A stretch of DNA of 64,000 nucleotides from Teretinema zuelzerae (lineage in GTDB: Bacteria; Spirochaetota; Spirochaetia; Treponematales; Treponemataceae): contig NZ_JAINWA010000001.1 of assembly GCF_021021555.1 (NCBI RefSeq), positions 310,001-374,000 on the forward strand, in the 5' to 3' direction. The stretch's first letter is position 1; every line of letters starts with the position of its first letter. Shown here piece by piece: positions 25,503 through 40,289 of this stretch. The notes under the pieces were generated by a model that saw only the letters and a list, made by a program, of their open reading frames with translations, ran no database searches and was not told the origin of the DNA. The position numbers and the translations under genes were made by a program.

Positions 25503-27419
25503 ATGGGCGAGATTAACTACGACATTGCGGCTATCGTCGTTCTTTTATTCAATATAGTTTTATTCTTCTCTCGCCGCAGGCTCAACATTCTGCAATCAGC
25601 GGTCTTCCTTGCCCTGCTTCTGGCCACCCTCGGAGCGACTTCCGCCGACGCGGCAACCGTGCTATTCTATGTAAACACGGATATTCACAGTCCGGCAACG
25701 CAGTACGCCGTAAACACCCTTTATTACCTCTTTCAGAACACCATCGCTCCCCTGTTTTGCGTATTTCTCCTGGTAGTCGATAATTCCTGGTACGGATTCA
25801 GCATAAAAAGAAAAACAGCCCTTCTTCTTCCCTGGTTCGCGGCAATTGCAACGATCCTGTCCAACCCATGGACCCGGTTTGTGTTTTCCTTTACGGATGC
25901 TATGGAATACCGGAGAAACGACGGTCTTGTCTTTCTATACCTCATTTCGCTTATGTACGCGGTTATTTCCCTCGTCAGCCTCGGTCGAACCAGAAAAAAA
26001 CTCTCGGGACGCACGGTACTCGCGTTGCTGCTGTTTCTGCCGTTCACCCTCGGCGCCTTCATTATCCAATTCTTCAATCCGCAACTGTTGATAATCAATT
26101 TCGGCATTTCCCTTTCCGAGCTCATTATTTTGCTTTCAATCAACGATTTCGACGTATTCATCGACGGACAGACAGGCTTATTCAACCGGGCAGGACTGGC
26201 GCTGTACCTCGAAAACATCGATCTCACAAAAGCAAAAGCGTCAGTGTATCTGGTGCATATCGACAACAAGCAATTTCTCGGCTACTCGGTGAAGCCCGAA
26301 GAGGCGATCGCCCTGGAAAAACGAATGATCGACGAAATTTTCAACGCGCCCTGCAGGAAAAAATTCATAGCGCGGTTCGATTTCGGAGAATACGCCCTGA
26401 TTTGCAGACATCGCGATCCGGAAGAAATCACGGAAAACAAGGAACGGATGCGCCGCTGCTTCTCCCGCCCGTTCATCGTCGGCGAAAAACGCTATCCCCT
26501 GCACGCCAGGCTCTGCCACATATCGGTACCCGAAGACGCGTCGAACGGCCGGATCGTGTTCCAGGCTCACCGGAGCCTCTCCGTTTCGGATTGGAGCTAT
26601 CCCCTGGACGCATGGCTGGGCCTGTCTGAAATCTCGCTGGCAAAACGCCAGATCTCCGTTTCAGAGGCCACCAAAGACGCCCTGGAGAACTTCGGCCTTA
26701 CGGTCCATTTTCAGCCGATAGTAAGCGCTGAAACAGGATCCATCGTCGCAGCGGAAGCGCTGGTGCGTCTTACCAGCAAAACGCTGGGACCGATCGGCCC
26801 GGGCGAGTTCATCCCCGTCGCCGAACGCAGCGGCCTGATCCACGCGATAGGAGACTTCGTCCTCGACCGTTCCTGCGCTTTTTTATCCGCGATTCGCGCG
26901 GAAGGATTACCGCTTCGCTACCTCGACATCAATCTCTCTCCCGTACAATTCGCCCAGTTCAATCTGGCGGACCGCATATACGCTGCCGCCCGCAACTACG
27001 GGTTGAAGGGACAGGATCTCTGCTTCGAGATTACCGAAACTGCCGCGGCCCTCTCTCCGCTCGCTATGATGCGCACGACGGAAGAACTTCAGGCAAAGGG
27101 TTTCTCGGTGGCGATAGACGATTTCGGTGTAGGAAATTCGAACATAGTCAATCTGCTTCAGATACCGTTCGCGTCGATCAAGCTTGACAGAAGCCTCGTC
27201 ATCGCCTCCAGCGAAAGCGATGCCGGCAGAGTAGAACTGTCAAGCTTCGTGTCGATCTTCAAAAGAATCGGCGTAGCGGTGGTTGCCGAAGGGGTCGAAA
27301 CCGCCGAACAGCTCGAGTTTCTGAAAACCATCGGGGTCGATCACATTCAGGGATATTACTTTTCCAAACCCCTATCGGCCGGAGACTTCAAAGATTGGTG
27401 CAGGGGGAAACGCGCATGA
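25503..27419 (+). CDS. 7TM protein with degenerate GGDEF and intact EAL domain (c-di-GMP phosphodiesterase)
   Basis: 638 residues. About seven membrane helices (1-215) form the sensor. Residues about 225-390 are a GGDEF-like domain without the GGDEF signature (RFDFGEYALICR in its place), so cyclase activity is not expected. Residues about 399-635 are an EAL domain with the expected catalytic set: EALVRL, DINLSPVQF, CFEITE, AIDDFGVGN, IKLDRSLV, AEGVETAEQ. It should hydrolyse c-di-GMP in response to a membrane signal. The stop overlaps the start of the paralogous gene downstream. TATACT at 25487-25492 lies only about 10 bases before the start, giving a very short leader. Confidence 0.88.
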   Translation: MGEINYDIAAIVVLLFNIVLFFSRRRLNILQSAVFLALLLATLGATSADAATVLFYVNTDIHSPATQYAVNTLYYLFQNTIAPLFCVFLLVVDNSWYGFSIKRKTALLLPWFAAIATILSNPWTRFVFSFTDAMEYRRNDGLVFLYLISLMYAVISLVSLGRTRKKLSGRTVLALLLFLPFTLGAFIIQFFNPQLLIINFGISLSELIILLSINDFDVFIDGQTGLFNRAGLALYLENIDLTKAKASVYLVHIDNKQFLGYSVKPEEAIALEKRMIDEIFNAPCRKKFIARFDFGEYALICRHRDPEEITENKERMRRCFSRPFIVGEKRYPLHARLCHISVPEDASNGRIVFQAHRSLSVSDWSYPLDAWLGLSEISLAKRQISVSEATKDALENFGLTVHFQPIVSAETGSIVAAEALVRLTSKTLGPIGPGEFIPVAERSGLIHAIGDFVLDRSCAFLSAIRAEGLPLRYLDINLSPVQFAQFNLADRIYAAARNYGLKGQDLCFEITETAAALSPLAMMRTTEELQAKGFSVAIDDFGVGNSNIVNLLQIPFASIKLDRSLVIASSESDAGRVELSSFVSIFKRIGVAVVAEGVETAEQLEFLKTIGVDHIQGYYFSKPLSAGDFKDWCRGKRA

Positions 27420-29335
27420 AGTACATACTCGACTTCGATATCGCCGCGGTCTGCATTTCCTGCATTACCCTGTTCCTCTTTTATGAGCGCAAGCAGCGTC
27501 GTTTCGGACCGGGCGAAAGCTACGGAAGAATCGCCTGGACGGTCTTGCTCAGCTCCGTATTCAGCGCCGCAAGCTCCTACTTTGCCAACGCCCTTCCCGG
27601 AACTTCAGGAGCCGCGACGATGGCCACGGTCACCCTCTTTTATCTATTCCATAACTCGATCGCTTTTTTCGCCGCCGTGTACATCCTCAACTACGGCGGA
27701 CTTCTTCCTGTAAAAAAAACAATGCGCGTCCTCCTCGCCCTCCCCTGGGCGATCGCAATCGCCGCCGTTGCCTCGAATCCTATTACACGGTTGATTTCGT
27801 ACGTCGATTCCGCGAACGTCTACCGCCGCGGTCCTCTCTTTTTTATCCTCTATCTGTTATCGACCCTGTACTTTCTTATCATCATAGCGGCTCTTTTTTT
27901 CAAGCGTTCGCACTATCGAAAATCCCATCAGCGCGCATTTTTGGCGGCGGCTCTCGCGCCCGTCCTAGCCGCGCTGATCCAGGGATTCAACAGGGGCCTT
28001 ATGCTCGAGTGTTTCGGCGCCTCAGTCAGCGCCCTGTTAGCGCTCATCACGATCCAGAACGCGAGCGAATTGATGGACGGACAAAGCGGACTCTATCATC
28101 GAGAATCGTTCATCGAATTCCTTGCGGGAGCTTTCAAGAAAAAAGAGCCGTTCACGGTTCTCATCGCGCACTCGCCAGAGCTCGCTGATCTTCAGGGCAG
28201 CCTGGAGATGCAAAACTACCGCGCCCTCGTTGCGCAGGTGTCGAAATGGATGTTCCAGGCGAGCGGAGCGGGAGCGGCTCCGTCGTGGGTCGGCACAGGC
28301 GTTTTCGGTCTTCTTTTCAGCAGGAGATTGAAGTCGAATCCTGTAGGAGATCTCGCTCTGAAAATTCTCGACCTGGCTGACGCCTCATGGAGCGTCGGGT
28401 CTTTGCATGTGAAAGTTCCCTTTAAGGTTACCATTCTGCAATGTCCTGAAGACGCCGCGGACATATCGGACGTTGTCGACTGCATAGACCAAATAGCCGA
28501 GGTTGCCCGGCATTCCGCCCACAAAAAGATCTACACGAAATTCGATTTTTCGGTCGGCAAGCACAAGAGAAGCTCTGCCGTAGCGGCTGCGCTGGAGCGC
28601 TGTCTGGAAAGAGAGAGCCCGGAGCTGTTTTATCAACCGGTGTATTCGATCGCGCGCAGCAAGCCCTTTGCGCTTGAAGTCCTGCTCGGACTCTCGCTCG
28701 TCAACAACGAACAGGCGTTCCAAAGCGAAGTCCTCTCGACGGCGGAGAAGATGGGAGTCAGCAGGCAGCTCACCGAATTGACGCTCAAAAAAGCGTTCGA
28801 GTGGCATGCGGCGAATAAACAGGAACTAGCGGGCATCGACCAGCTGCAGCTCAGGCTGGTCTCGTCCATGTGCCTCGATCTCGACTGGCCGAGGACGGTG
28901 CTGAAAACGGCTGCAGACGCAAGAATGGATCTTTCCAAAGTCTGTTTTGAAATAACCGAAACCACCGTATCGCGGTTCGGGAACGACCTCGCGATGAACA
29001 TGGAACTGCTGACCGGCAAGGGAGTGTCTTTCGCGCTGGACGATTTCGGATCCGGCTATACCAATTTGGTCAAGCTCGCCCCGATGCCGTTTTCGATTAT
29101 TAAATTCGACAAGAAAATAATCCAGCCGGGGCTGCAAAGCAATAAGGGCCGGCAGCTGTTGGAAGGCATGGTCGACATCTTTAAAAGACGCGAATGCGCG
29201 GTCGCCGCCGAAGGCGTTGAAACGGAAGCGCAGGCGGGCATGCTCGCATTGATGAATTTCGACCACCTGCAGGGGTATTTATTCGGCAAGCCGATGAGCG
29301 GGCAGCGCATCGTGGAAGCGTTGAAAAACGGCTAA
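27416..29335 (+). CDS. 7TM protein with degenerate EAL domain, paralogue of the preceding gene
   Basis: 639 residues, coupled to the preceding gene by ATGA (ATG 27416). Same layout: about seven helices, an unrecognisable GGDEF-like middle, and an EAL-type domain from about residue 401. The key motif is changed (ALEVLLGLS instead of EALxR) and the metal-binding Asn of NLS is lost (LRLVSSMCLD). FEITET, ALDDFGSGYTN, IKFDKK and AAEGVETEAQ are kept. I infer a c-di-GMP-binding or regulatory subunit, not an enzyme, possibly pairing with the product of the upstream gene. It is followed 20 bases later by a DUF454 gene. Confidence 0.82.
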   Translation: MKYILDFDIAAVCISCITLFLFYERKQRRFGPGESYGRIAWTVLLSSVFSAASSYFANALPGTSGAATMATVTLFYLFHNSIAFFAAVYILNYGGLLPVKKTMRVLLALPWAIAIAAVASNPITRLISYVDSANVYRRGPLFFILYLLSTLYFLIIIAALFFKRSHYRKSHQRAFLAAALAPVLAALIQGFNRGLMLECFGASVSALLALITIQNASELMDGQSGLYHRESFIEFLAGAFKKKEPFTVLIAHSPELADLQGSLEMQNYRALVAQVSKWMFQASGAGAAPSWVGTGVFGLLFSRRLKSNPVGDLALKILDLADASWSVGSLHVKVPFKVTILQCPEDAADISDVVDCIDQIAEVARHSAHKKIYTKFDFSVGKHKRSSAVAAALERCLERESPELFYQPVYSIARSKPFALEVLLGLSLVNNEQAFQSEVLSTAEKMGVSRQLTELTLKKAFEWHAANKQELAGIDQLQLRLVSSMCLDLDWPRTVLKTAADARMDLSKVCFEITETTVSRFGNDLAMNMELLTGKGVSFALDDFGSGYTNLVKLAPMPFSIIKFDKKIIQPGLQSNKGRQLLEGMVDIFKRRECAVAAEGVETEAQAGMLALMNFDHLQGYLFGKPMSGQRIVEALKNG

Positions 29336-29355: not shown

Positions 29356-29805
29356 ATGAAGGTTGCACGATACGCCTTGATAGGCGCGGGTTTTTGTTCG
29401 CTCGGATTCGGAGTCGCGGGAATCTTTCTTCCGGTTCTCCCCACCACGCCATTCCTCCTGCTGTCCGCGTCCTGCTTTATGAAAAGTTCGGACCGGCTGT
29501 ACGCGTGGATCAGGTCGCACCCGATTCTGGGAAAATACATAACCGATTATCTCACCCACAGGGCGATCACGAAAAAAAACAAGATCGTTTCGATCAGCTT
29601 TCTATGGGCTATGCTCGGCGCGACGGCAGTGTTCGCGACAGAGTCCCTCGTCGTCCGCTTGATTCTCGCCTGCGTCGGAGCCGGGGTCACCATTCATCTG
29701 TCGCTGATGAAAACGCTCAAAGAAGCGGATGCCCCGAACACGCAGAACGAACCCGAACACGCAGAGTCAGAACAGACGGTAGCCGGCCCTCAAAACCGGC
29801 CGTAA
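29356..29805 (+). CDS. YbaN family (DUF454) inner-membrane protein
   Basis: 149 residues. The N-terminal signature ALIGAGFCSLGFGVAGIFLPVLPTTPFLLLSASCFMKSSDRLY is the DUF454 hallmark; two further helices and a charged tail follow. Function unknown; E. coli YbaN is the reference. It sits 20 bases behind the EAL pair and is probably the third gene of that operon. Its last 39 bases overlap the 3' end of the convergent outer-membrane gene, and the overlapping tail is low-complexity. Confidence 0.85.
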   Translation: MKVARYALIGAGFCSLGFGVAGIFLPVLPTTPFLLLSASCFMKSSDRLYAWIRSHPILGKYITDYLTHRAITKKNKIVSISFLWAMLGATAVFATESLVVRLILACVGAGVTIHLSLMKTLKEADAPNTQNEPEHAESEQTVAGPQNRP

Positions 29806-30990
29806 AAAGCCCGCGGCGTTTTCTCCCTGAAACACCTGCACCCAGTCGGCCCCGATTTCCAAATGGATTCGTTTGGGGAGAAAAACCTGGGCCGCGAGTC
29901 CGCCTGAAACGCAGGGGCTGGAAAATTCCTCGACCGGACCCGGACTTCCCGAATAGTCGAAGGCATGGGAACTCACCGAGACTCCTCCGCCGGCGCGGGC
30001 CTGAAGATGAACCGTCTTATTGACGCGGTACTTGTACAGAAGCGTCATGTTCGAGACGAGATAATCGCTCGCCACTTCCGCCATATCGAGGCCGCCGGTG
30101 AGCCGGTGAGCCGACGAATCGAAGCCGAAGCCCAGAAAGCCCCAGGCCTTCTTCATGAAATACAGCGAAAAGGCCGTGTCCGCCCCGAGAAAGTACGTTT
30201 GGTCGCTCCACACTTCGGTGAACCAGGAGTCTCCGGCAAGATACACGGGTGCGTATCCGGCGGAGAGCAGGATGTCGACAGGGCGCTGGTACAGGATGCG
30301 GATCGCCTGCGGACGATTGATGTAGAGTCCGCCCGGATTCACGACCGAAATATCGAAGGTGCCCGGAACATAGGCTTCCTCGGGGAAGCGCACGACGACT
30401 TCCGACTCGCCTACCCGTTCCTGCTCGATTCCGACAATGCCCCGCCCGGGCTTGGCGTCTTTTTTTCTGAGCATGACCCGCGCGCCTTCCTGGATGCGCT
30501 GGCCCTTCACCGTTACAAAGGCGTTGAACGAATCCATGAAAATGAAACCCGGAGAAAGATCCTGGACCTCCGGCATCTCCGCGCGGAGGATCGACAATTG
30601 CTGAAAGCCGGTTTCCACCTCGCTCTGCCCTAAAAGATTGACCGTAACGATATTATAGGAATACTCCCCCGGCGGCAGGCTCAAGGCGAGGCTGGTTCCT
30701 TCCTGCCTGCTGCGGAGCAATTCGGTTCCGGCGGCGTCGAGCACGACGACCTCGTACTCCAGAGCGTAGGGATCTCCGTCCCAGGAAAGAGTCTGGGTAT
30801 ATACCGGATTTCCGTCCTCCCCTATTTCGTATTGATAGCCGACCGAGCTCGTATCCAGAAAATCCTGTTCGAGAGATTCTGCTGAGCCGGAAGGCCCGGA
30901 GGCGGCATCGCCGGCGAATAGAGGCGCCGAAAGCGCTGAGGAAAGCGCTGACAGGAAAACGAGGGCGGCAATACGCGCGTCAACGGCCAT
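29767..30990 (-). CDS. Outer-membrane protein, last gene of the cyclase-FecR operon
   Basis: 407 residues. A signal peptide at the start (cleavage near LFA|GD) and a beta-rich first half: a fibronectin-like segment ALEYEVVVLDAAGTELL... and an IPT-like segment SPGFIFMDSFNAFVTVKGQRI. The second half has barrel-like strands (DILLSAGYAPVYL, AFSLYFMKKAWGFLGFGFD, SVSSHAFDYSG) ending FLRPVLRAGYRLF with a terminal aromatic, as in outer-membrane barrels. Its start overlaps the end of the FecR gene by 11 bases. Probable role: surface or outer-membrane partner of the upstream sensor proteins. Confidence 0.65.
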   Translation of the reverse strand: MAVDARIAALVFLSALSSALSAPLFAGDAASGPSGSAESLEQDFLDTSSVGYQYEIGEDGNPVYTQTLSWDGDPYALEYEVVVLDAAGTELLRSRQEGTSLALSLPPGEYSYNIVTVNLLGQSEVETGFQQLSILRAEMPEVQDLSPGFIFMDSFNAFVTVKGQRIQEGARVMLRKKDAKPGRGIVGIEQERVGESEVVVRFPEEAYVPGTFDISVVNPGGLYINRPQAIRILYQRPVDILLSAGYAPVYLAGDSWFTEVWSDQTYFLGADTAFSLYFMKKAWGFLGFGFDSSAHRLTGGLDMAEVASDYLVSNMTLLYKYRVNKTVHLQARAGGGVSVSSHAFDYSGSPGPVEEFSSPCVSGGLAAQVFLPKRIHLEIGADWVQVFQGENAAGFLRPVLRAGYRLF

Positions 30991-33847
30991 AGAGAGATCC
31001 TCCCGTTTTGGAAGCGGCTTGTCTGGCCGGCGGCAGGTCTACCGTGAAGGAAGTTTCCCCCGGCAGCCCCGGCTGTTCGACCACTCCGTCTTCCGCCGTC
31101 CAGCTCGCTTCAACCCGAACGCGGTTCTTTCCGCGGGATAGAGCGGTTAAATCCGAAAGAGTAAACCGGGTTTCCGTAATTCCGCTTTTCGTGAACGAGC
31201 TTTCGCGTTTTCCTTCCGGATAAATCGAAAGCGTGTATTGATTCGAGCCTTCCACCGGCGACCAGGCGAAATCGATTGTTCTCGAGTTTCTAAATTCCTG
31301 CACGCCGAACACCGCGCCGGCCGCCGGAGCCGACACGACGGGAGCCGGAAGGGGCGGAACCGGAAGCACCGTGAACCGCCGGGTTTCCTGCGCCGAAATA
31401 TCGAAGCCGGCAAGCGTTCCGCCGACAGTCCAGAGATAGCTTCCGGGAACCAGACGGCGCGCGGTAAAGAGTTCTCCCTTCGAGGAACTCCGAGCGGCTT
31501 CCGTCTCCGATCGGCCATCGATACGGGTAAGCGTAAATTCCTGCGCTTCGGGAGGATTCGCCGAATTATAACGCAGCTCGACGCCGCGCCTCAGGGCTTC
31601 AAGGCCTTCGAAGACAGCGCCGTCCTCGGGAGATGCGAGCTTGAGATACTCAAGCCGCCGGTACGAAAGGAACGACTCTCCGATGTATCCGATGATCCTC
31701 GTCGATTCTTCGGACTCTGAAGCGAAGCCCTGGATGCGGACCGCGTACCTGCCGCTCCGGAAGTTTCCCATCGGGATCTCAAGCGCGTTTTCCGTAAGGT
31801 GCGTGCGTTCGAATACCGGTTCGGCGTAACCGTCCTCGGGGGAATAGAGGGCCAGGTTGCAATAATCCGCGCCGGGAACCGGATTCCATTCTATAACGGC
31901 GGAATCTCCTTCGCGCAAATACAGGAGGGACGAAACGGCGGGCTTGGTTACCGCGGTTCCGGGGAGCGGATCGAGTATCGTAAAGGAGCGCACGGGCGTC
32001 TCGATGAAGACGGAACCGTCAGCGTTGAGGGTGCGGATTTTCCAGTACCAGGTGCCGCTCTTCCATGCCCTGCCGAACAGGGTTTCCGCCGCCGCCTTCT
32101 CCTGCAGGAACACCGTGGAAAACGACGGATCATCGGACAGAACGAAGAAGGTGTCCGCCGCAATGTTCGACTTCCAGGTGAAGCGGATATTCGAAACAAG
32201 AGAATCCGCGATCCGGTAGCCCTCCGGCGGAAACACCGGCCTGAGCGCGATCGAACCGTCGATACCGATTATCCTGCGCGGCTCGCTAACCGGAGAAGCG
32301 TTGCCCTCGTTGTCGATCCACCGCACCGCCCAATAGCGGGTTCCCGGCTTCCGCAAAACAGCGGCGGCGTCGCCCGAGAGCCTGATGTAGGGAGTAAGGG
32401 AGGAAACCGTAAAGGACGCATCGGAAAAGGATTCAGCGTCCGAAACGACCAGCTCGTAGGAAACAGCTTCGGCATGGGGAAGCCAGGCGAAGGCCAAACC
32501 CTTTTCGTCGATCTCCTGAATTTGATAGAGAAGGCCGTTGAAGGGCGTGCTTGAAGCTATCGGCTGCATGGCGCCGCTCTTTTCTATCCGCAGGGTTCTC
32601 GCGACGGGCTCGGGAGCGTTCAGGGTTTCGGTATATCCGTGCACCGGCGTTACGCGCCAATACCACAGGCCCGCCCCTATCTCGGAAAGGGAAATATTCG
32701 AGCCTGAAACCCGTGTGCGGATTTTGCTCTTGGTAAAAGCGGGAGAGTCGGATAGTTCGAACACATAGGCCGAAGCTTCCTTCATAGCAGTCCACGCGAA
32801 TCTGATTTCCGGGAGTCTCTTCCGGTAGCGGTATTCGGCTCCGTCTTCGGGGAAGGCCGGGCGGGGAAAGGAATCGAGCTCGTAGCTGAACTTCCGCGCA
32901 GGCGAAAGCCGGCCGGCCTCGTCTCGCACCCGCCAAAACCAGGTTCCCGGAAGCACCGGAAGAAAGGCGGATAGCCCTTCCGCCTGATGAGTCGCGGCAA
33001 TAGCGGAAAAATCTTTCTCGGCAGAAATCTCTAGCGTAAACGCCGGAAGAGCTCCCGAGTCTGCGGCGGAAGATCCGGCCCCGCCGGCCTCCAGCTGCCA
33101 GACGAACTCGAAAAGCTGCGCGCCCGCCTGCTGCCCGGCATCGACTCGCGCGCCGGATTCGACTCGCGCGCCGCCGCCGGCAAACGTTGAACTTCCGGCG
33201 GCTCCGAGAATCCGGGCGTTGCGCGCCGGCTTCAGGGGAATGATGGGGCGGCTCACGAAGCGCGAGCTGCCGTCTGCGGCGTTCACCTCGATCGCCTGGT
33301 TTTCTTTCACTTCCTGCGTGCTTCCGTCCGCTCGGGTAAGCCTGGCAGTTCCCTTATTCACCTCGACGCCGATCACGTTGTTCGTCTCGTCGCGGCTGAA
33401 GGTCGCGCTCGAATCGGCGCCCACGGAAATAGTGCCGGCCTTTGAGGATATGACATAGTCCGACCCCGAGGCCGAACCGCCCACGGTGATCTCGCCGTCC
33501 AGGAATTCCAGGTTGCGGGTCGGTCCGCCGAAGTCGAGCTTGAGCATGGAGTTCGCGTCCAGCTCGAGCGAGGTTCCGTCGTCGAAAAAGATGGCGGCCT
33601 CGGAGAGCGTTCCGGTCCTCAGCGTGTCCGCGTTGTACACGGGGCTGTCGTTCCGCATCCGCTCCCAGCCGAGGGCGTCCGAGGGCCGGCGCGTAGCCGT
33701 CATCTTCTTGAAGACGACCGTGCCCAGCGGCTTTTCGTTCGCGCGGAAGGAGACGGTGCCGATATCGAGGGCGAACAGCCACAGAAGGGCGCAGGAACCG
33801 GCGAACGAAAGCGCCGAAACCAGGGCGTCGCTAGCCGACAATTTCAT
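30980..33847 (-). CDS. Large FecR-domain protein with Ig/fibronectin-like repeats
   Basis: 955 residues. One N-terminal membrane anchor (about 8-28) is followed by a FecR domain at about 60-195: SPVYNADTLRTGTLSEAAIFF, DGTSLELDANSMLKLD, GVEVNKGTARLTRADGS. Residues about 220-950 hold roughly seven Ig/Fn3-like units of the type PxDGAxYRxRxxxxxxxFxWxxxxxAxxYxxELSDxxxF, each ending GxWYWRV. It projects into the periplasm. The start overlaps the end of the cyclase gene by 17 bases and its end overlaps the outer-membrane gene by 11. FecR domains usually relay or scaffold surface signals. Confidence 0.8.
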   Translation of the reverse strand: MKLSASDALVSALSFAGSCALLWLFALDIGTVSFRANEKPLGTVVFKKMTATRRPSDALGWERMRNDSPVYNADTLRTGTLSEAAIFFDDGTSLELDANSMLKLDFGGPTRNLEFLDGEITVGGSASGSDYVISSKAGTISVGADSSATFSRDETNNVIGVEVNKGTARLTRADGSTQEVKENQAIEVNAADGSSRFVSRPIIPLKPARNARILGAAGSSTFAGGGARVESGARVDAGQQAGAQLFEFVWQLEAGGAGSSAADSGALPAFTLEISAEKDFSAIAATHQAEGLSAFLPVLPGTWFWRVRDEAGRLSPARKFSYELDSFPRPAFPEDGAEYRYRKRLPEIRFAWTAMKEASAYVFELSDSPAFTKSKIRTRVSGSNISLSEIGAGLWYWRVTPVHGYTETLNAPEPVARTLRIEKSGAMQPIASSTPFNGLLYQIQEIDEKGLAFAWLPHAEAVSYELVVSDAESFSDASFTVSSLTPYIRLSGDAAAVLRKPGTRYWAVRWIDNEGNASPVSEPRRIIGIDGSIALRPVFPPEGYRIADSLVSNIRFTWKSNIAADTFFVLSDDPSFSTVFLQEKAAAETLFGRAWKSGTWYWKIRTLNADGSVFIETPVRSFTILDPLPGTAVTKPAVSSLLYLREGDSAVIEWNPVPGADYCNLALYSPEDGYAEPVFERTHLTENALEIPMGNFRSGRYAVRIQGFASESEESTRIIGYIGESFLSYRRLEYLKLASPEDGAVFEGLEALRRGVELRYNSANPPEAQEFTLTRIDGRSETEAARSSSKGELFTARRLVPGSYLWTVGGTLAGFDISAQETRRFTVLPVPPLPAPVVSAPAAGAVFGVQEFRNSRTIDFAWSPVEGSNQYTLSIYPEGKRESSFTKSGITETRFTLSDLTALSRGKNRVRVEASWTAEDGVVEQPGLPGETSFTVDLPPARQAASKTGGSLYGR

Positions 33848-35696
33848 ATTTTACTTCTTCCTTGTCCACTTCTATCTTTTTCCCGGGATCGGCGATTCCG
33901 AGCTTCTCTCTCAATTCGGAAAGAGACCCGGGTCCTTCATCCCCCTTCATCTTCACCACGGCATATATCGTAAGCGGCGCGGTTTTGCCCTTTACCGTTA
34001 TCGCCGGCATGGGCTCCGCGATCACCGCGTCCTTGACCAGATCCCAGGTGTATTCGGAAATGAGCACATCGGTTCCAAAGGGCTTGTTGAGCGCCTCGAT
34101 GCGGCTCGCGAGATTCACCGCGTCGCCGATTACCGTATACTCCATGCGCGAAAGCGAGCCGATCTGCCCGGCGATCACCGGACCGGTGTTCACGCCCGCG
34201 CCGTTATGAATAAAGGGCTTCTCGGGAGTGCCGCGGCCCTTGTTGAACTCGAGCAGCTCGTCGCGCATCATGAGCATCGCGCGCACCGCGGCGAGCGCGT
34301 CGTCCCGCGGAGTCCCGGCGGAAACCGGCGCGCCCCACACGCCCATGATCGCGTCCCCGATGAATTTGTCTACGACGCCGCCGGTCTTCTCGATGCAGGC
34401 GACCATGCGCGTCATGTACTCGTTCAAAAATTCGACGACAGCCTCAGGAGAGAGGCGCTCGGAAATCGCGGTAAACGAGCGTATGTCGGAAAAAAAGATC
34501 GTCGCGGTTTTGCGCTGTCCGCCGAGCTTGAGTTCGCCCTTGAGCGCCTGCTCGGCGATCTCCTTGTTGACGAACTTGCCGAAGGTCTCCTTTACCCGCT
34601 CACGCTCGGCGAGCCCCTTGCCCATTTCCACGAAGGACTCGGTCAAGAGTCCGAGCTCGTCGCGCGTTTCCGGCAGAATGTCGAGCTCGAAGTCCCCCTC
34701 CTCTATCCGGTGCGCCGCGCGCACAAGGGAGAGAACCGGTCGCGAAATCGACTTGGAAAAAAACCACACTGCCAAAACCGAGATAAGGAGAACCACGCCG
34801 GAAAGAAGAAAGTTGCGCCTGAGCACGTCCGTCGCTGCGCGGTACACGAGGGCTGTCGGAGTCGAGCTCGTTACCGCAAGCGCGCCGACGGAAAGCCGCC
34901 TGAACGCGCCGAGGTAGCGCGTCCCGTCCACGTCGCGGTAGCGTATCTGCAGATTGTCGGAAGGGCTTTCAAGCGCCTTTTTCACCAGCTCGCGGTCGGA
35001 AAAGTTCGCCCCCATTTTCACGAGGTCGAAATCCGGGTGCACGATGAGCCCGCCGTCCCAGCCGACCACGTAGTTGATTCCGGCTGAGTCGGTCTGCACC
35101 ATCTGAAGGAATTCCTCCGTGGAAAAAACAATCACGAGGGCGTTGCGCGTGCCCATGTCGCGGTAGGGAACGAAGAGGGCGGCGGCGGGAATCCCGACCG
35201 AGGGGCTCGCGTTTGCCACGAGGCTTTCGCCTTCCTTCGCGCGTTCTATCAAGCCCTTTGCCGATTCCAGAAAGGGCTGCAAGGCTGCCGAGTCGAGTTC
35301 GTTCGCCTTGAAGAATTTGTCGTTGCGTATTTCTTTTTGTCCGGGAACGGAGACGAGGGCGACCGACGCGTTGCGGTCGAACCAGTTGGAGACGGCTGCC
35401 CGTTCGAGCGAGCGGTTGCCCGCGTTTTCGCGCAAAGTGTCCAGGAGAGAGAGGGTTCCGGAGTGCGTGGACTCGATCCTGCCGGTTATCTGCGCGGCGA
35501 GGACCTGGCTCACAGTGAGCGTGTTTTCCTCCGCCCGCGCCCGCGAGTCTTCGGAGAAGAACCAGGACGCGATTCCGGTCACGAGCGCCATCGACACCAC
35601 CACGATTATCGATATGATCCCGATCAATTTTATTACCAGCGGAAACCTCACCCGCTTTTTTCGTCCGCCGCCCTTCTCGTCCCTTCCGTCTTTCAT
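33831..35696 (-). CDS. Class III adenylate/guanylate cyclase with dCache sensor and HAMP
   Basis: About 621 residues. A basic N-terminus and TM helix (VIKLIGIISIIVVVSMALVT), a double-Cache periplasmic sensor at about 40-280, a second TM, HAMP (ISRPVLSLVRAAHRIEEGDF), then a cyclase domain at about 385-570: IFFSDIRSFTAISERLSPEA (first metal Asp pair), VDKFIGDAIMGVWGAP (second Asp) and YTVIGDAVNLASRIEALN (transition-state Asn/Arg). It should make cAMP, possibly cGMP, on an extracellular cue. ATG 35696 is chosen because AAGGATGG lies upstream; ATG 35741 and TTG 35762 are alternatives. First gene of the operon with FecR and the outer-membrane protein. Confidence 0.88.
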   Translation of the reverse strand: MKDGRDEKGGGRKKRVRFPLVIKLIGIISIIVVVSMALVTGIASWFFSEDSRARAEENTLTVSQVLAAQITGRIESTHSGTLSLLDTLRENAGNRSLERAAVSNWFDRNASVALVSVPGQKEIRNDKFFKANELDSAALQPFLESAKGLIERAKEGESLVANASPSVGIPAAALFVPYRDMGTRNALVIVFSTEEFLQMVQTDSAGINYVVGWDGGLIVHPDFDLVKMGANFSDRELVKKALESPSDNLQIRYRDVDGTRYLGAFRRLSVGALAVTSSTPTALVYRAATDVLRRNFLLSGVVLLISVLAVWFFSKSISRPVLSLVRAAHRIEEGDFELDILPETRDELGLLTESFVEMGKGLAERERVKETFGKFVNKEIAEQALKGELKLGGQRKTATIFFSDIRSFTAISERLSPEAVVEFLNEYMTRMVACIEKTGGVVDKFIGDAIMGVWGAPVSAGTPRDDALAAVRAMLMMRDELLEFNKGRGTPEKPFIHNGAGVNTGPVIAGQIGSLSRMEYTVIGDAVNLASRIEALNKPFGTDVLISEYTWDLVKDAVIAEPMPAITVKGKTAPLTIYAVVKMKGDEGPGSLSELREKLGIADPGKKIEVDKEEVKYEIVG

Positions 35697-35900
35697 TCCC
35701 GTCCATCCTTCGCGCAAATAACGTTCACTTTTTTTTACCATAATCAAAATCGAGCCCGACAATCCCTCATCCTTCGAACATCATCGTTCGGAGGCCCCTC
35801 AATCGCTCGTCCCTGCAGAGGCGGAATCTCCCCTCCCTGACCGCCAGCGTGTTACGCTGATCTGCACATTCGCCGCCGCGGTGTTTCGCCGCATCGCCGC

Positions 35901-38900
35901 TTACGGATCCATAAGCGTCTGTATTTCAGCCTGACTCTTCGCCGTATTGAAAATCTTCAAATCGCTCATCGCCCCGTTGAAGGCTCCGAAGTAAAACTCA
36001 GAACCGGGTCCGGTCGCGCCGCTGTATGCGCCGGTTGTATTGCCCACCTGTACTCCGTTAACGAATTGAGATACTGTTTTGTTTTTATAGACCATCGCTA
36101 CATGGCACCAGGTATCAAACTGGATGTCTGGCGGATTTGCAATACTGACTCCGCTACCGCCCTGTTGTGTAATCTGAGCAATAAACTTCCATGGACTTTC
36201 AGAGTTTTTACTAAGAATCACTCCGTAGTTGCTCACACCTGAACCCGACTTATAGAAAAGATATGTATAGCCTACATCGACTGAAGTAATCTTGAACCAG
36301 CCCATGATTGTAAAGTCGTTTTCGCCGGTAAACAGAACCGAGGAATCGGTAGTCAATAGTTTTTGATCTGCTGTCGTTTGATACGCGGCATTCGGAACAC
36401 CATTCCTGTTGGGAATTAACGTTATCCCGGCACTTTTGGTAAAAGCCAGCTCGTTTCCGTTCAAATATCCTCCAAGAAACGGAGGGGACCGGGTGTCGCT
36501 TCCAAAGCACTGCAAGTAAGGATGGCCGTTATTGATCGCACCGGTCGTATCAATTCCCCATATCTTTGAATTATTTAATCCAGAATCGATATCCCAGGTT
36601 GCGCCGGTGAAGGTTGAGGGGTCAAGCATTTCTGTCGTTGTTTTCGGTGTACCTTTGTCGGTATCAGACATCCCGGTGGTAGTTGCGTTGTAGAAACTCT
36701 TAGAAATAATTGAGTTTTCATTATAACCAACTAAGCCACCAGTATTTGCAGAACCTGTAACTTTTCCAATGGCAAAGGATTTCTCTACAACCGGGATTAT
36801 ATTAGTTCCCGGATTTTTCCAGGTATGGCCGACTAATCCTCCAACATTTTCTCTTGTTGAAGTTACTGAACCGGTCGCGTAGCAGTTACTTATAAAATTC
36901 TCATTCCTACCGACAAGTCCGCCAACAGAAAAACTGCTAGCTAAAACGGGAACTGTACTGTAACTTTCAGAAATTAACCCTCTGTTGATGCCTACCAATC
37001 CACCGACATAGATTACGCCTTGAACAGGTGAGGAACCAGAAACCGAACAATGACGAATAACACCATTATTTTGGCCAGCAAGTATGCCGCAAGAATCGGA
37101 GGAGCTTTTAATGGAGGCATTCTCTATATTCACATTCTCAATCGTTCCATTATTAATACCAAAAAGACCGGCAGACGATTCATTATAATCAACAGTTAAT
37201 CCACTAATAGTGAATCCGTTCCCGTTGAAAATTCCTGTAAATGGATCAGCTCCACTTCCCAGTGGGGTCCAATCATCCAGAAGCGTGATGTCGCCGCTTA
37301 GAGTGTACTTAGCGGAATGATCGCTCATTGCACCCGAAAGTGTTTCTGCGTACATATCCCCCGATGGCAGAGTAATTGTGTTCTGCGCACCGAGCGCATT
37401 CAGATAAGGATACCCATCGTTAAATAATCCATTCGAATTATCAGTATCGATCTCCCAGACAGTAACAAAATCCCAGCCGGTAAAGGCTCCAGAGTCTTTC
37501 ATATCCGCCGTCGTTTTAGGTTCACCCTTACCGGTATCGGACATCCCGGAGGTAGTTGTATTGTAGAAACAATTAATTAATGAAGAGCCAGAAACACCAA
37601 CAAGCCCACCAGTATCGTCAACACCAGAAACCTTACCGGTTGCATACGAGTTCTTTACAATACAAGAACTCCACACATCCCCGATAAGACCTCCAATTTG
37701 TTTTCCGTTTAGTGACGTTACTGAACCTGTCGCATAACAGTCGATGATTGTACCGCCGTTTGTCCCGACGAGACCGCCTACATACCAGGATGTGGCTTCA
37801 ACTGGAATAGACGTATAGCTTTCTGTAATCGTTCCGGTATTTTTTCCAACCAATCCGCCAAGCCGGCCCATGGCCTTCACCGGTTTTAAACCAATTACAG
37901 AGCAACGACGAATTAGACCATTGTTCTGCCCGGCAAGTCCACCGCTGTAATCATTAGTTGTAATTACTGAAGGATTCTCTAGTTTCACATTTTCGATTAT
38001 TCCGTTATTTACGCCGAACAACCCGACATTTTGTATTTCCAAGGATACGTTCAATCCGCTTATGGTGTGCCCGTTTCCGTTGAAGGTTCCAGTGAACGGC
38101 AAGTCTACGCTTCCCACAGGAGTCCACGGTGTGGAAATAGTGATATCTCCGTTCAATACATAATCAGCAGAAAGATCAGATAGAGAATCTAGAAATTCAT
38201 CGGCAGTTACAGTGCCTGCATTTAAAGAAACATCGGAGGTTGGCATGATAGAGAGAAGATACGGAAATCCCGAATTTATAGCAGAATTAATCGCCCAAAC
38301 GATTGACTTATCCCAAGCTGAAAATGCCGTTGCATTTCTCATCTCATCGACAGATTTCGGAGTACCGCGATCAGTGTCAGAAAGTCCGGACAACGGTTGA
38401 TTATAATAACTGCCGGAGACGAGCCCGCCCTCGTCCTTTGCTCCGACTAATCCGCCGGAATTGGTACTTGCAGTTACAGTTCCAGATGCATAACAGTTTG
38501 CAATCGAACCAGTAGATGCCTGACTCGCGACAAGTCCGCCGGCAGTATTTTGTGCGCTTACATTGCTGCGGGCGTACGAATTCTCAACAATTCCCCAGTT
38601 ACTGCCAACCAGACCGCCGGCAATAGTGGATGTTGAGGTAACAGTCGCAGTGGAGTAACATTCTGAAATTCTACTCTGAAAATCATATGTAGACTCAGCC
38701 CGGTTATTTCCGACCAAGCCTCCTACCCCATGATGCCCTGTTACGTACCCTGAAACAGAACAGCGTGTTATAGTTCCGCCGTAGTTCTCTCCAACCAAAC
38801 CGCCGATTCCGTCGTCTGTTCCCCCGCCGGTGATCGAAACATTCGTCAGCCTCACCCCGGTGATGTACGCACCTTTGCCTATTGCGGCGAAGAACCCTGC

Positions 38901-40289
38901 ATCGCCATTTGTAGTCGTCAAATTAAGACCGGATATTGTATGTCCGCCGCCGTCGAAAGTACCAGTGAACATAAATGACTGATCAACATACACTCGTGAA
39001 GGATCAGGACCGATGCTTCCCACCGGAGTCCAATTGCCTGTCCCGGTCAACATAATATCATCTTCCAGAATCACATTATTATTGAGCAGCTCATTGTTTT
39101 TTGCGGATAATGCGCCGGCCAGGGCAGTTGCAGTTTTGACGCGAATGGGAGATCGCATGGTAATGGAATACTTGACTGGAGATCCGCCGGAAGGAGAAGA
39201 CACATCTAAAATCAATGTATTTGCACGATTTTCGCTTGTGAAATCATCCACAACATTAGCGTTCATCGGAAGCGACAAAGGCACTCCGGATATACAGGAG
39301 ATAGATGAACTACCATTCCATGAATACATCATTGCTTGGCCGATTTCTCCCACGAGCGGGACAATTGTAACAGTGGTAGACAGAGCGGCATTGTAAGAGG
39401 ATGGAACTCCCGAGTCATTTAAAGCGATTATTGATGAATTTCCTCCTGCCATGACCAGGATTGAAGAACCAGTTCCGGTGCTCGCAATTTCGGCTTCCGT
39501 AAAAGTACGAACCGATACTAACGATCCGTTTTGCACGACATGAGAGCTCGTTGCGTTGTCGCAGATATACACAGCCTCATACGCGTAACCGACATGGGTA
39601 GTGCCTAAAAAAAACTCAATAATGAGATAATGAGAACCGCTGGACAGGCCTGATTTATCAAGCTTTGCGCTTCGCATACCGACGGATGGATTACCGTACT
39701 CAATCGACGGCTCAGCCGATGCATTACCATCGAGATACCACTTGATCGAATCAGCCGCGAAATCAGGCCACTGAACAGAAAAAGACAGATTTCCGCTTCC
39801 GGTTTCGGTATTCAGGTACGACAGAACTATCGACACAGCTGCAGAACCGTCCTGAACCAGATTAACGTTGGCCGAACCCTGTGCAATCAATCTGTCGGAG
39901 GTATGAACTGTTGCATCTGAATACGCCCGGGCAGTCACCGTAAATGAACCGGCCGGCAGATTTTTCAGAACGCATGAATCAAGGGAGGTTATCACCACAC
40001 TGGCTACTTCTTTGCCGGATGCATCGGAACAGGAGACGACATATGCTTTTGCGTTTGCTTCAAGAGAAGGAACAACTGTTCGGTCGTTTCGGGAAGATAT
40101 TGAACCATCAGTGCGAGCCATCGCATCTTCGTAGACCAGGGAAACAGATAGAGAACCTGCGCCGCCGGACGAAGAATGATCCTTATCGATGAAAAAAAGA
40201 GAACAGGAGGAAGCCATCACACTTCCCGCTAACACAGCAATGAAAACAAAGGTCGAAACTGTTCCATGCATTTTGTGAGTATTCATCAT
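35901..40289 (-). CDS. Giant surface lipoprotein with three GLUG-repeat modules and a LamG domain
   Basis: 1462 residues. The signal ends in VMASSC, a relaxed spirochaetal lipobox. Residues about 40-260 form a module shared with the upstream gene. Three homologous modules follow, at about 386-683, 690-966 and 966-1263. Each starts with a WTPVGS...FTGTFxGxGHTISGL segment, runs through GLUG units (GGLVGxNxG...CYATGSV) and closes with SDTxxGxPKTxxEM...GxPYL. A laminin-G-like domain at about 1300-1462 (DFTIMGWFKITS, WCHVAMVYKNKT, FYFGAFNGAMSDLKIFN) closes the protein. It probably binds carbohydrate or host/surface ligands. The start overlaps the previous gene as AATGATG. Base composition is visibly more AT-rich than the neighbours. 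Confidence 0.82.
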   Translation of the reverse strand: MMNTHKMHGTVSTFVFIAVLAGSVMASSCSLFFIDKDHSSSGGAGSLSVSLVYEDAMARTDGSISSRNDRTVVPSLEANAKAYVVSCSDASGKEVASVVITSLDSCVLKNLPAGSFTVTARAYSDATVHTSDRLIAQGSANVNLVQDGSAAVSIVLSYLNTETGSGNLSFSVQWPDFAADSIKWYLDGNASAEPSIEYGNPSVGMRSAKLDKSGLSSGSHYLIIEFFLGTTHVGYAYEAVYICDNATSSHVVQNGSLVSVRTFTEAEIASTGTGSSILVMAGGNSSIIALNDSGVPSSYNAALSTTVTIVPLVGEIGQAMMYSWNGSSSISCISGVPLSLPMNANVVDDFTSENRANTLILDVSSPSGGSPVKYSITMRSPIRVKTATALAGALSAKNNELLNNNVILEDDIMLTGTGNWTPVGSIGPDPSRVYVDQSFMFTGTFDGGGHTISGLNLTTTNGDAGFFAAIGKGAYITGVRLTNVSITGGGTDDGIGGLVGENYGGTITRCSVSGYVTGHHGVGGLVGNNRAESTYDFQSRISECYSTATVTSTSTIAGGLVGSNWGIVENSYARSNVSAQNTAGGLVASQASTGSIANCYASGTVTASTNSGGLVGAKDEGGLVSGSYYNQPLSGLSDTDRGTPKSVDEMRNATAFSAWDKSIVWAINSAINSGFPYLLSIMPTSDVSLNAGTVTADEFLDSLSDLSADYVLNGDITISTPWTPVGSVDLPFTGTFNGNGHTISGLNVSLEIQNVGLFGVNNGIIENVKLENPSVITTNDYSGGLAGQNNGLIRRCSVIGLKPVKAMGRLGGLVGKNTGTITESYTSIPVEATSWYVGGLVGTNGGTIIDCYATGSVTSLNGKQIGGLIGDVWSSCIVKNSYATGKVSGVDDTGGLVGVSGSSLINCFYNTTTSGMSDTGKGEPKTTADMKDSGAFTGWDFVTVWEIDTDNSNGLFNDGYPYLNALGAQNTITLPSGDMYAETLSGAMSDHSAKYTLSGDITLLDDWTPLGSGADPFTGIFNGNGFTISGLTVDYNESSAGLFGINNGTIENVNIENASIKSSSDSCGILAGQNNGVIRHCSVSGSSPVQGVIYVGGLVGINRGLISESYSTVPVLASSFSVGGLVGRNENFISNCYATGSVTSTRENVGGLVGHTWKNPGTNIIPVVEKSFAIGKVTGSANTGGLVGYNENSIISKSFYNATTTGMSDTDKGTPKTTTEMLDPSTFTGATWDIDSGLNNSKIWGIDTTGAINNGHPYLQCFGSDTRSPPFLGGYLNGNELAFTKSAGITLIPNRNGVPNAAYQTTADQKLLTTDSSVLFTGENDFTIMGWFKITSVDVGYTYLFYKSGSGVSNYGVILSKNSESPWKFIAQITQQGGSGVSIANPPDIQFDTWCHVAMVYKNKTVSQFVNGVQVGNTTGAYSGATGPGSEFYFGAFNGAMSDLKIFNTAKSQAEIQTLMDP

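Follow-up and report, generated by a model that had tools for sequence, protein, structure and literature searches.

A conserved spirochaete gene trio as a candidate sigma-free variant of FecR-type signalling with an adenylyl cyclase output

Cell-surface signalling of the FecI-FecR-FecA type, which includes FoxI-FoxR-FoxA and PupI-PupR-PupB, combines an outer-membrane barrel, an inner-membrane FecR protein and a cytoplasmic output, an extracytoplasmic function (ECF) sigma factor. The STN subdomain binds the receptor in FoxR and PupR, and the known FecR-domain systems signal inwards (PMC11637429). The locus described here lies in a 64,000-nucleotide stretch of Teretinema zuelzerae (contig NZ_JAINWA010000001.1, positions 310,001 to 374,000; hereafter the window), in which three genes encode a membrane adenylyl cyclase (CYC), a FecR-domain protein (FEC) and a predicted outer-membrane protein (OMP). 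The spirochaete envelope comprises two membranes with a wide periplasm between them, and little is known of how surface events reach the cytoplasm.

The trio occupies positions 29767-35741 on the minus strand and is read from the open reading frames (ORFs) head to tail as CYC, FEC and OMP, with an overlap of 17 bp between CYC and FEC and of 11 bp between FEC and OMP. An earlier note on this DNA had described three overlapping genes for a cyclase, a 955-residue protein with FecR and immunoglobulin (Ig) domains and a barrel protein, a description borne out by the ORFs, by Pfam matches to HAMP, cyclase and FecR, and by the Ig domains and barrel in the structural models. The note's suggestion of a continuous signalling path is supported in part, in that the predicted domain architecture fits a route from the outer membrane through the periplasm to the cyclase. 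The three proteins probably form one trans-envelope module for cyclic AMP (cAMP) signalling, related to the FecR type but free of sigma factors, that would relay surface events to cAMP; the protein contacts, the inward direction of the signal and the identity of the input are what we infer.

Conservation of the trio was followed with FEC and with OMP as the query. A query with FEC alone gave matches in 48 of the 99 genomes of the order. Among the first 40 FEC-seeded loci of the order, 38 have an adjacent CYC, another starts at a contig edge, and a single locus (L062) truly lacks CYC. OMP is adjacent in 39 of the 40, the remaining locus running off its contig. As a control, the four genes flanking the trio in the window were found in 0-4 of these loci, and a chance neighbourhood was ruled out because the trio is conserved and its flanking genes are not. 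Twenty weaker FEC loci contain CYC in 18 cases and OMP in about half. An OMP-only query was run over 296 genomes of the phylum, and CYC and FEC are present in all 20 of the loci inspected. Across these genomes, FEC occurs in 116 of the 118 that have OMP (Fisher p 7e-36, a value that ignores relatedness). Within the treponeme family, FEC and OMP are both present in 37 genomes and both missing from 10, of which one has a marginal FEC match at 3e-4; 2 genomes have FEC only and none has OMP only. None of the 10 treponeme genomes without FEC and OMP has the full-length cassette cyclase. Named records with the cassette include Treponema and Alkalispirochaeta, and Leptospiraceae for CYC and FEC. The trio is a conserved module in most spirochaete lineages sampled, not a local accident.

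The association exceeds operon inertia, as seen from varied gene order, joint loss, fusion and the keeping of partners among paralogues. The earlier note had proposed a search for conservation of the trio and held that the lack of a conserved neighbourhood would count against its reading; the search instead found the three genes colinear across the phylum, together with these departures from a simple operon. In L219, OMP is divergent from the rest of the trio. Outside the spirochaetes, a metagenome-assembled genome (MAG) of the Bdellovibrionales (L167) has the order FEC-OMP-CYC, and in a deltaproteobacterial MAG (L165) CYC is divergent. In one genome only, the single-contig G048, CYC and FEC are fused in one uninterrupted ORF of 1596 residues (L045:2701-7491, G048:C1). 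Genomes with several cassettes mostly keep the partners together: leaving aside one discordant pair, 142 of 148 comparisons give concordant distances for CYC and FEC, and agreement for OMP is lower. Functional linkage of CYC, FEC and OMP is well supported.

CYC (35741-33831, minus strand; 636 residues) is predicted to be a membrane receptor adenylyl cyclase composed of a membrane segment, a dCache-like periplasmic sensor, a second membrane segment, a HAMP domain and a class III catalytic domain. Its start is uncertain: the ATG at 35741 is used here, but translation could also begin at later ATGs or at a TTG at 35762. Pfam matches were obtained to Guanylate_cyc (6.3e-22) and HAMP (2.3e-11). The sensor, residues ~60-305 (34827-35564), is assigned to the stretch that two hydrophobic segments of the sequence enclose. 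As to the dCache label of the earlier note, Pfam gave no dCache_1 match in the window CYC itself, but dCache_1 was matched in 14 of 43 homologues at E<=0.01, and in the CYC of L165 and L167 at about 1e-8, under the curated cut-off. N177, P192, S207, H235, D237 and Q265 of the sensor are near-invariant in the homologue alignment. The catalytic domain, residues 411-589 (33975-34511), was aligned at its active site to Pseudomonas aeruginosa CyaB, the closest solved structure (2e-37). The residue set of a class III adenylyl cyclase is complete, with the metal residues Asp419 and Asp463, the adenine-selecting pair Lys459 and Thr536, and the transition-state residues Asn543 and Arg547 each at least 90% conserved in the 43 homologues; all but Asp463 are identical in P. 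aeruginosa CyaB or its relatives. A Lys/Thr pair is the mark of adenylyl cyclases of the CyaB-like type, and because the conserved catalytic residues include it, CYC is expected to make cAMP rather than cGMP. The T. zuelzerae genome has 14 Guanylate_cyc matches and 13 matches to cyclic-nucleotide-binding (cNMP-binding) domains, the latter making cAMP receptors plausible. The window CYC is ~70-73% identical to its counterparts in genomes labelled as another family (L035-L038, f3) and mostly below 50% identical to those of its own family (f1), a sequence pattern that suggests transfer of the gene or an odd placement in the taxonomy.

OMP (30990-29767, minus strand; 407 residues) is modelled (predicted local distance difference test, pLDDT, 86) as an 8-strand barrel preceded by a signal peptide and two Ig-like domains. 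The Ig domains, Fn3-like Ig1 (52-136) and IPT/TIG-like Ig2 (137-235), lie at 30286-30837 and are predicted to be periplasmic; IPT/TIG structural matches over residues 136-235 have Z scores of about 10-11. The barrel, residues 236-407 (29770-30285), matches OmpA-type barrels, with Z 19.4 over 161 residues for Escherichia coli OmpA and about 14-18 for NspA, OmpW, OmpX and Ail. If the Ig domains are periplasmic, both barrel ends would face the periplasm. OMP ends in YRLF, and the terminal Phe is kept in nearly all homologues; a C-terminal aromatic residue is typical of outer-membrane barrels. The predicted structure thus has the eight up-down strands, the C-terminal aromatic residue and the signal peptide of an 8-strand barrel protein. 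No match to an STN, plug or TonB-receptor domain was found in 38 OMP homologues, nor any to the OmpA C-terminal domain. Of these homologues, 35 match NF047756 (the LIC11435 family). The window OMP scores 29.3 bits against a curated cut-off of 380 and is not an equivalog of that family, while the trio member in L210 matches the model at near full length with 320 bits.

FEC (33847-30980, minus strand; 955 residues) is predicted to be an inner-membrane-anchored FecR-domain protein with seven Ig/Fn3 domains. The Pfam FecR match (3.9e-08) is above the cut-off. The AlphaFold2 model has a mean pLDDT of 86 and a predicted template modelling score of 0.46, in keeping with a flexible multi-domain chain. 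The membrane segment, residues 5-37 (33737-33835), is helical in the model and hydrophobic in sequence, with only a handful of residues ahead of it. The FecR domain follows at residues ~42-216 (33200-33724); its top structural match is to an anti-sigma factor, PupR, in the periplasmic signalling domain (6ovk_R; Z 15.9, root-mean-square deviation 2.0 Å, 128 residues). The seven Ig/Fn3-like domains, residues ~240-937 (31037-33130), form a rod in the model; structural matches in this part of the protein are Ig/Fn3-like chains and nothing more specific, and Ig domains fill the position of the STN subdomain of FoxR and PupR. One Ig domain is ~4 nm long, and a rod of seven, ~28 nm, could cross or nearly cross the spirochaete periplasm. 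Rod length is highly variable: the FECs of Treponema pallidum and of Leptospiraceae-like loci are short, about 600-720 residues, and in L036, L062, L136 and L153 the open frames are far longer, about 1370-1810 residues.

The C-terminal tail of FEC (30983-31036) is predicted to be disordered, with pLDDT below 50 at residues 945-955, and ends in GSLYGR. Y953 and G954 are near-invariant in the homologue alignment. The LYG codons overlap the start codon of OMP (TATGG) in most treponemes, so much of this conservation may be translational, and the reading of LYG as a binding motif was set aside. In cassettes without the overlap, an aromatic motif is kept in 25 of 34 tails against a shuffle mean of 10.6; the pattern was picked after viewing the data, so the test is only suggestive. 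The conserved aromatic motif is a candidate docking site at that level.

In the proposed mechanism, OMP would sit in the outer membrane with the loops of its barrel at the surface and its two Ig domains in the periplasm. FEC would have its anchor in the inner membrane, its FecR domain would lie beside the CYC sensor and touch it, and its rod would span the periplasm so that the tail or the last Ig domains dock on the periplasmic Ig domains of OMP. A ligand or matrix bound by OMP, or strain in the envelope, would alter the rod; the FecR domain would then shift the dCache-HAMP dimer of CYC and change the rate of cAMP synthesis, and the cAMP would be read by Crp-type cNMP-binding proteins.

The trio links this mechanism to a known protein of the syphilis spirochaete. 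The T. pallidum locus (L075) carries all three genes next to a gene that we take to be that of the p83/100 antigen. Its FEC is shorter, at 640 residues, and its OMP, a homologue of the window OMP, is Tp0483, 374 residues from the matched start. Each of the five Tp0483 peptides printed in PMC13181057 is present in the L075 OMP; four match their printed position, and the fifth is off by two. Tp0483 is reported to bind fibronectin and laminin (PMC10118025), and its reported fibronectin-binding stretches, 274-289 and 316-333 (PMC5421087), align with L2 and L3, hairpins that the window OMP model predicts at the surface. This peptide mapping supports the predicted topology of OMP; matrix binding by the window OMP does not follow from it. 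In the literature covered, which does not include subscription papers, there was no mention of TP0485 and no link between Tp0483 and cAMP. A broader proposal can be put forward only tentatively: that a surface barrel sensing matrix or contact and driving a cyclase through a FecR/Ig rod is a new class of trans-envelope signalling, old in the Spirochaetota and shared with the Bdellovibrionales, and that Tp0483 would be a receptor and not a mere adhesin.

Several observations weigh against a single signalling module. CYC has its own sensor, which may bind a periplasmic ligand directly, and the outer-membrane location of Tp0483 is disputed (PMC10118025). CYC and FEC occur without a recognisable OMP in L076, L077 and L094, and FEC occurs alone in L078 and L079, so OMP is not always needed. 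In G102, the paralogue pair L212/L213 is discordant in its CYC and FEC distances, and may be a candidate case of partner exchange. The lone FEC homologues (L078:5411-8275 and L079:4791-7580) share the same two flanking genes, one of which resembles a further barrel protein and might substitute as a partner. Among other variants, L088, L089 and L090 have a tandem pair of CYC genes, with a short FEC of about 320-350 residues after them, possibly a two-cyclase version.

The complete receptor architecture of CYC, the long rod of FEC, well suited to tethering, and the reported binding of fibronectin and laminin by Tp0483 (PMC10118025) lend themselves to another explanation, in which CYC uses a dCache-like domain of its own to sense a small molecule in the periplasm, and FEC and OMP form a tether or adhesin that feeds the cyclase as a checkpoint or not at all. 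Such an arrangement is unlikely, if the strongest of the alternatives, for a cyclase that is lost jointly with FEC and OMP, is fused to FEC in one genome and follows both into other gene orders. The signal may also run outwards, with the cyclase complex controlling the surface protein and FEC acting as a mechanical link that positions or folds OMP. FEC and OMP are the tightest pair by distance correlation (0.75, against 0.65-0.69), and their 11-bp overlap, kept in most treponemes, suggests coupled translation. This reversal of direction appears improbable given the conserved catalytic residues of CYC and the inward signalling of known FecR-domain systems (PMC11637429).

That FEC is an ordinary FecR anti-sigma regulator of a distant ECF sigma factor, with incidental neighbours, has the PupR-like fold and the 8 Sigma70_r2 matches of the genome in its favour but is hardly credible, since the membrane helix begins at residue 5, no anti-sigma domain was matched by Pfam in 37 FEC homologues, OMP has no STN or TonB-receptor match, and the closest Sigma70_r2 match is ~143 kb away, in agreement with the earlier remark that no sigma factor is nearby. 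The anti-sigma reading was ruled out on the missing anti-sigma domain and the missing neighbouring sigma gene. FEC does have the periplasmic FecR domain of such systems, but the N-terminal cytoplasmic anti-sigma domain is absent, no adjacent ECF sigma gene occurs between 25.5 and 40.3 kb of the window, and OMP is not a TonB-dependent receptor with STN. As these three defining features are lacking, the cassette is not a member of Fec/Fox/Pup signalling; by analogy, it is best read as a sigma-free variant of FecR-type cell-surface signalling.

Other genes surround the cassette. Upstream, at 35901-40289 (minus strand), an unrelated gene outside the conserved cassette encodes a probable lipoprotein of 1462 residues. 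This protein has seven GLUG repeats and, at its C-terminus, a Laminin_G_3 domain, and is likely to be found at the surface. Downstream, on the opposite strand, are a DUF454 gene and genes for two EAL proteins; the latter, at 25503-29335 (plus strand), are tandem and overlapping and encode membrane proteins with C-terminal EAL domains of the cyclic-di-GMP phosphodiesterase family. Elsewhere in the same genome (L231, G000:C1:699000-711000), another FecR-domain protein is encoded ~3 kb from a small sigma-factor gene, which is followed by genes for a zinc-finger-like protein and an IPT-type protein.

The cassette is a concrete, testable candidate for surface-to-cytoplasm signalling in spirochaetes. 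It offers a signalling role for the known syphilis adhesin Tp0483, would give FecR domains an output that needs no sigma factor, and links one family among the many spirochaete class III cyclases to an outer-membrane partner.

Compared with the described systems, the cassette shares with the FecI-FecR-FecA type the combination of outer-membrane barrel, inner-membrane FecR protein and cytoplasmic output, and its FecR domain structurally matches PupR. It differs in that the output is an adenylyl cyclase and not an ECF sigma factor, in that seven Ig domains stand in FEC without an anti-sigma domain or STN subdomain, and in that OMP is an 8-strand barrel instead of a TonB-dependent receptor. CYC shares its catalytic domain and Lys/Thr substrate pair with class III adenylyl cyclases such as P. 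aeruginosa CyaB, and its predicted dCache-HAMP front end and its linkage to FEC and OMP set it apart from them. OMP has the barrel fold of OmpA, OmpX and Ail, but carries N-terminal Ig domains and has no match to the OmpA C-terminal domain. Most OMP homologues match the model of the LIC11435 family, a predicted outer-membrane protein of Leptospira, to which the window OMP is homologous over only part of its length. Tp0483 and its neighbours form the same three-gene cassette, with a shorter FEC, yet Tp0483 is described in the literature covered only as an adhesin.

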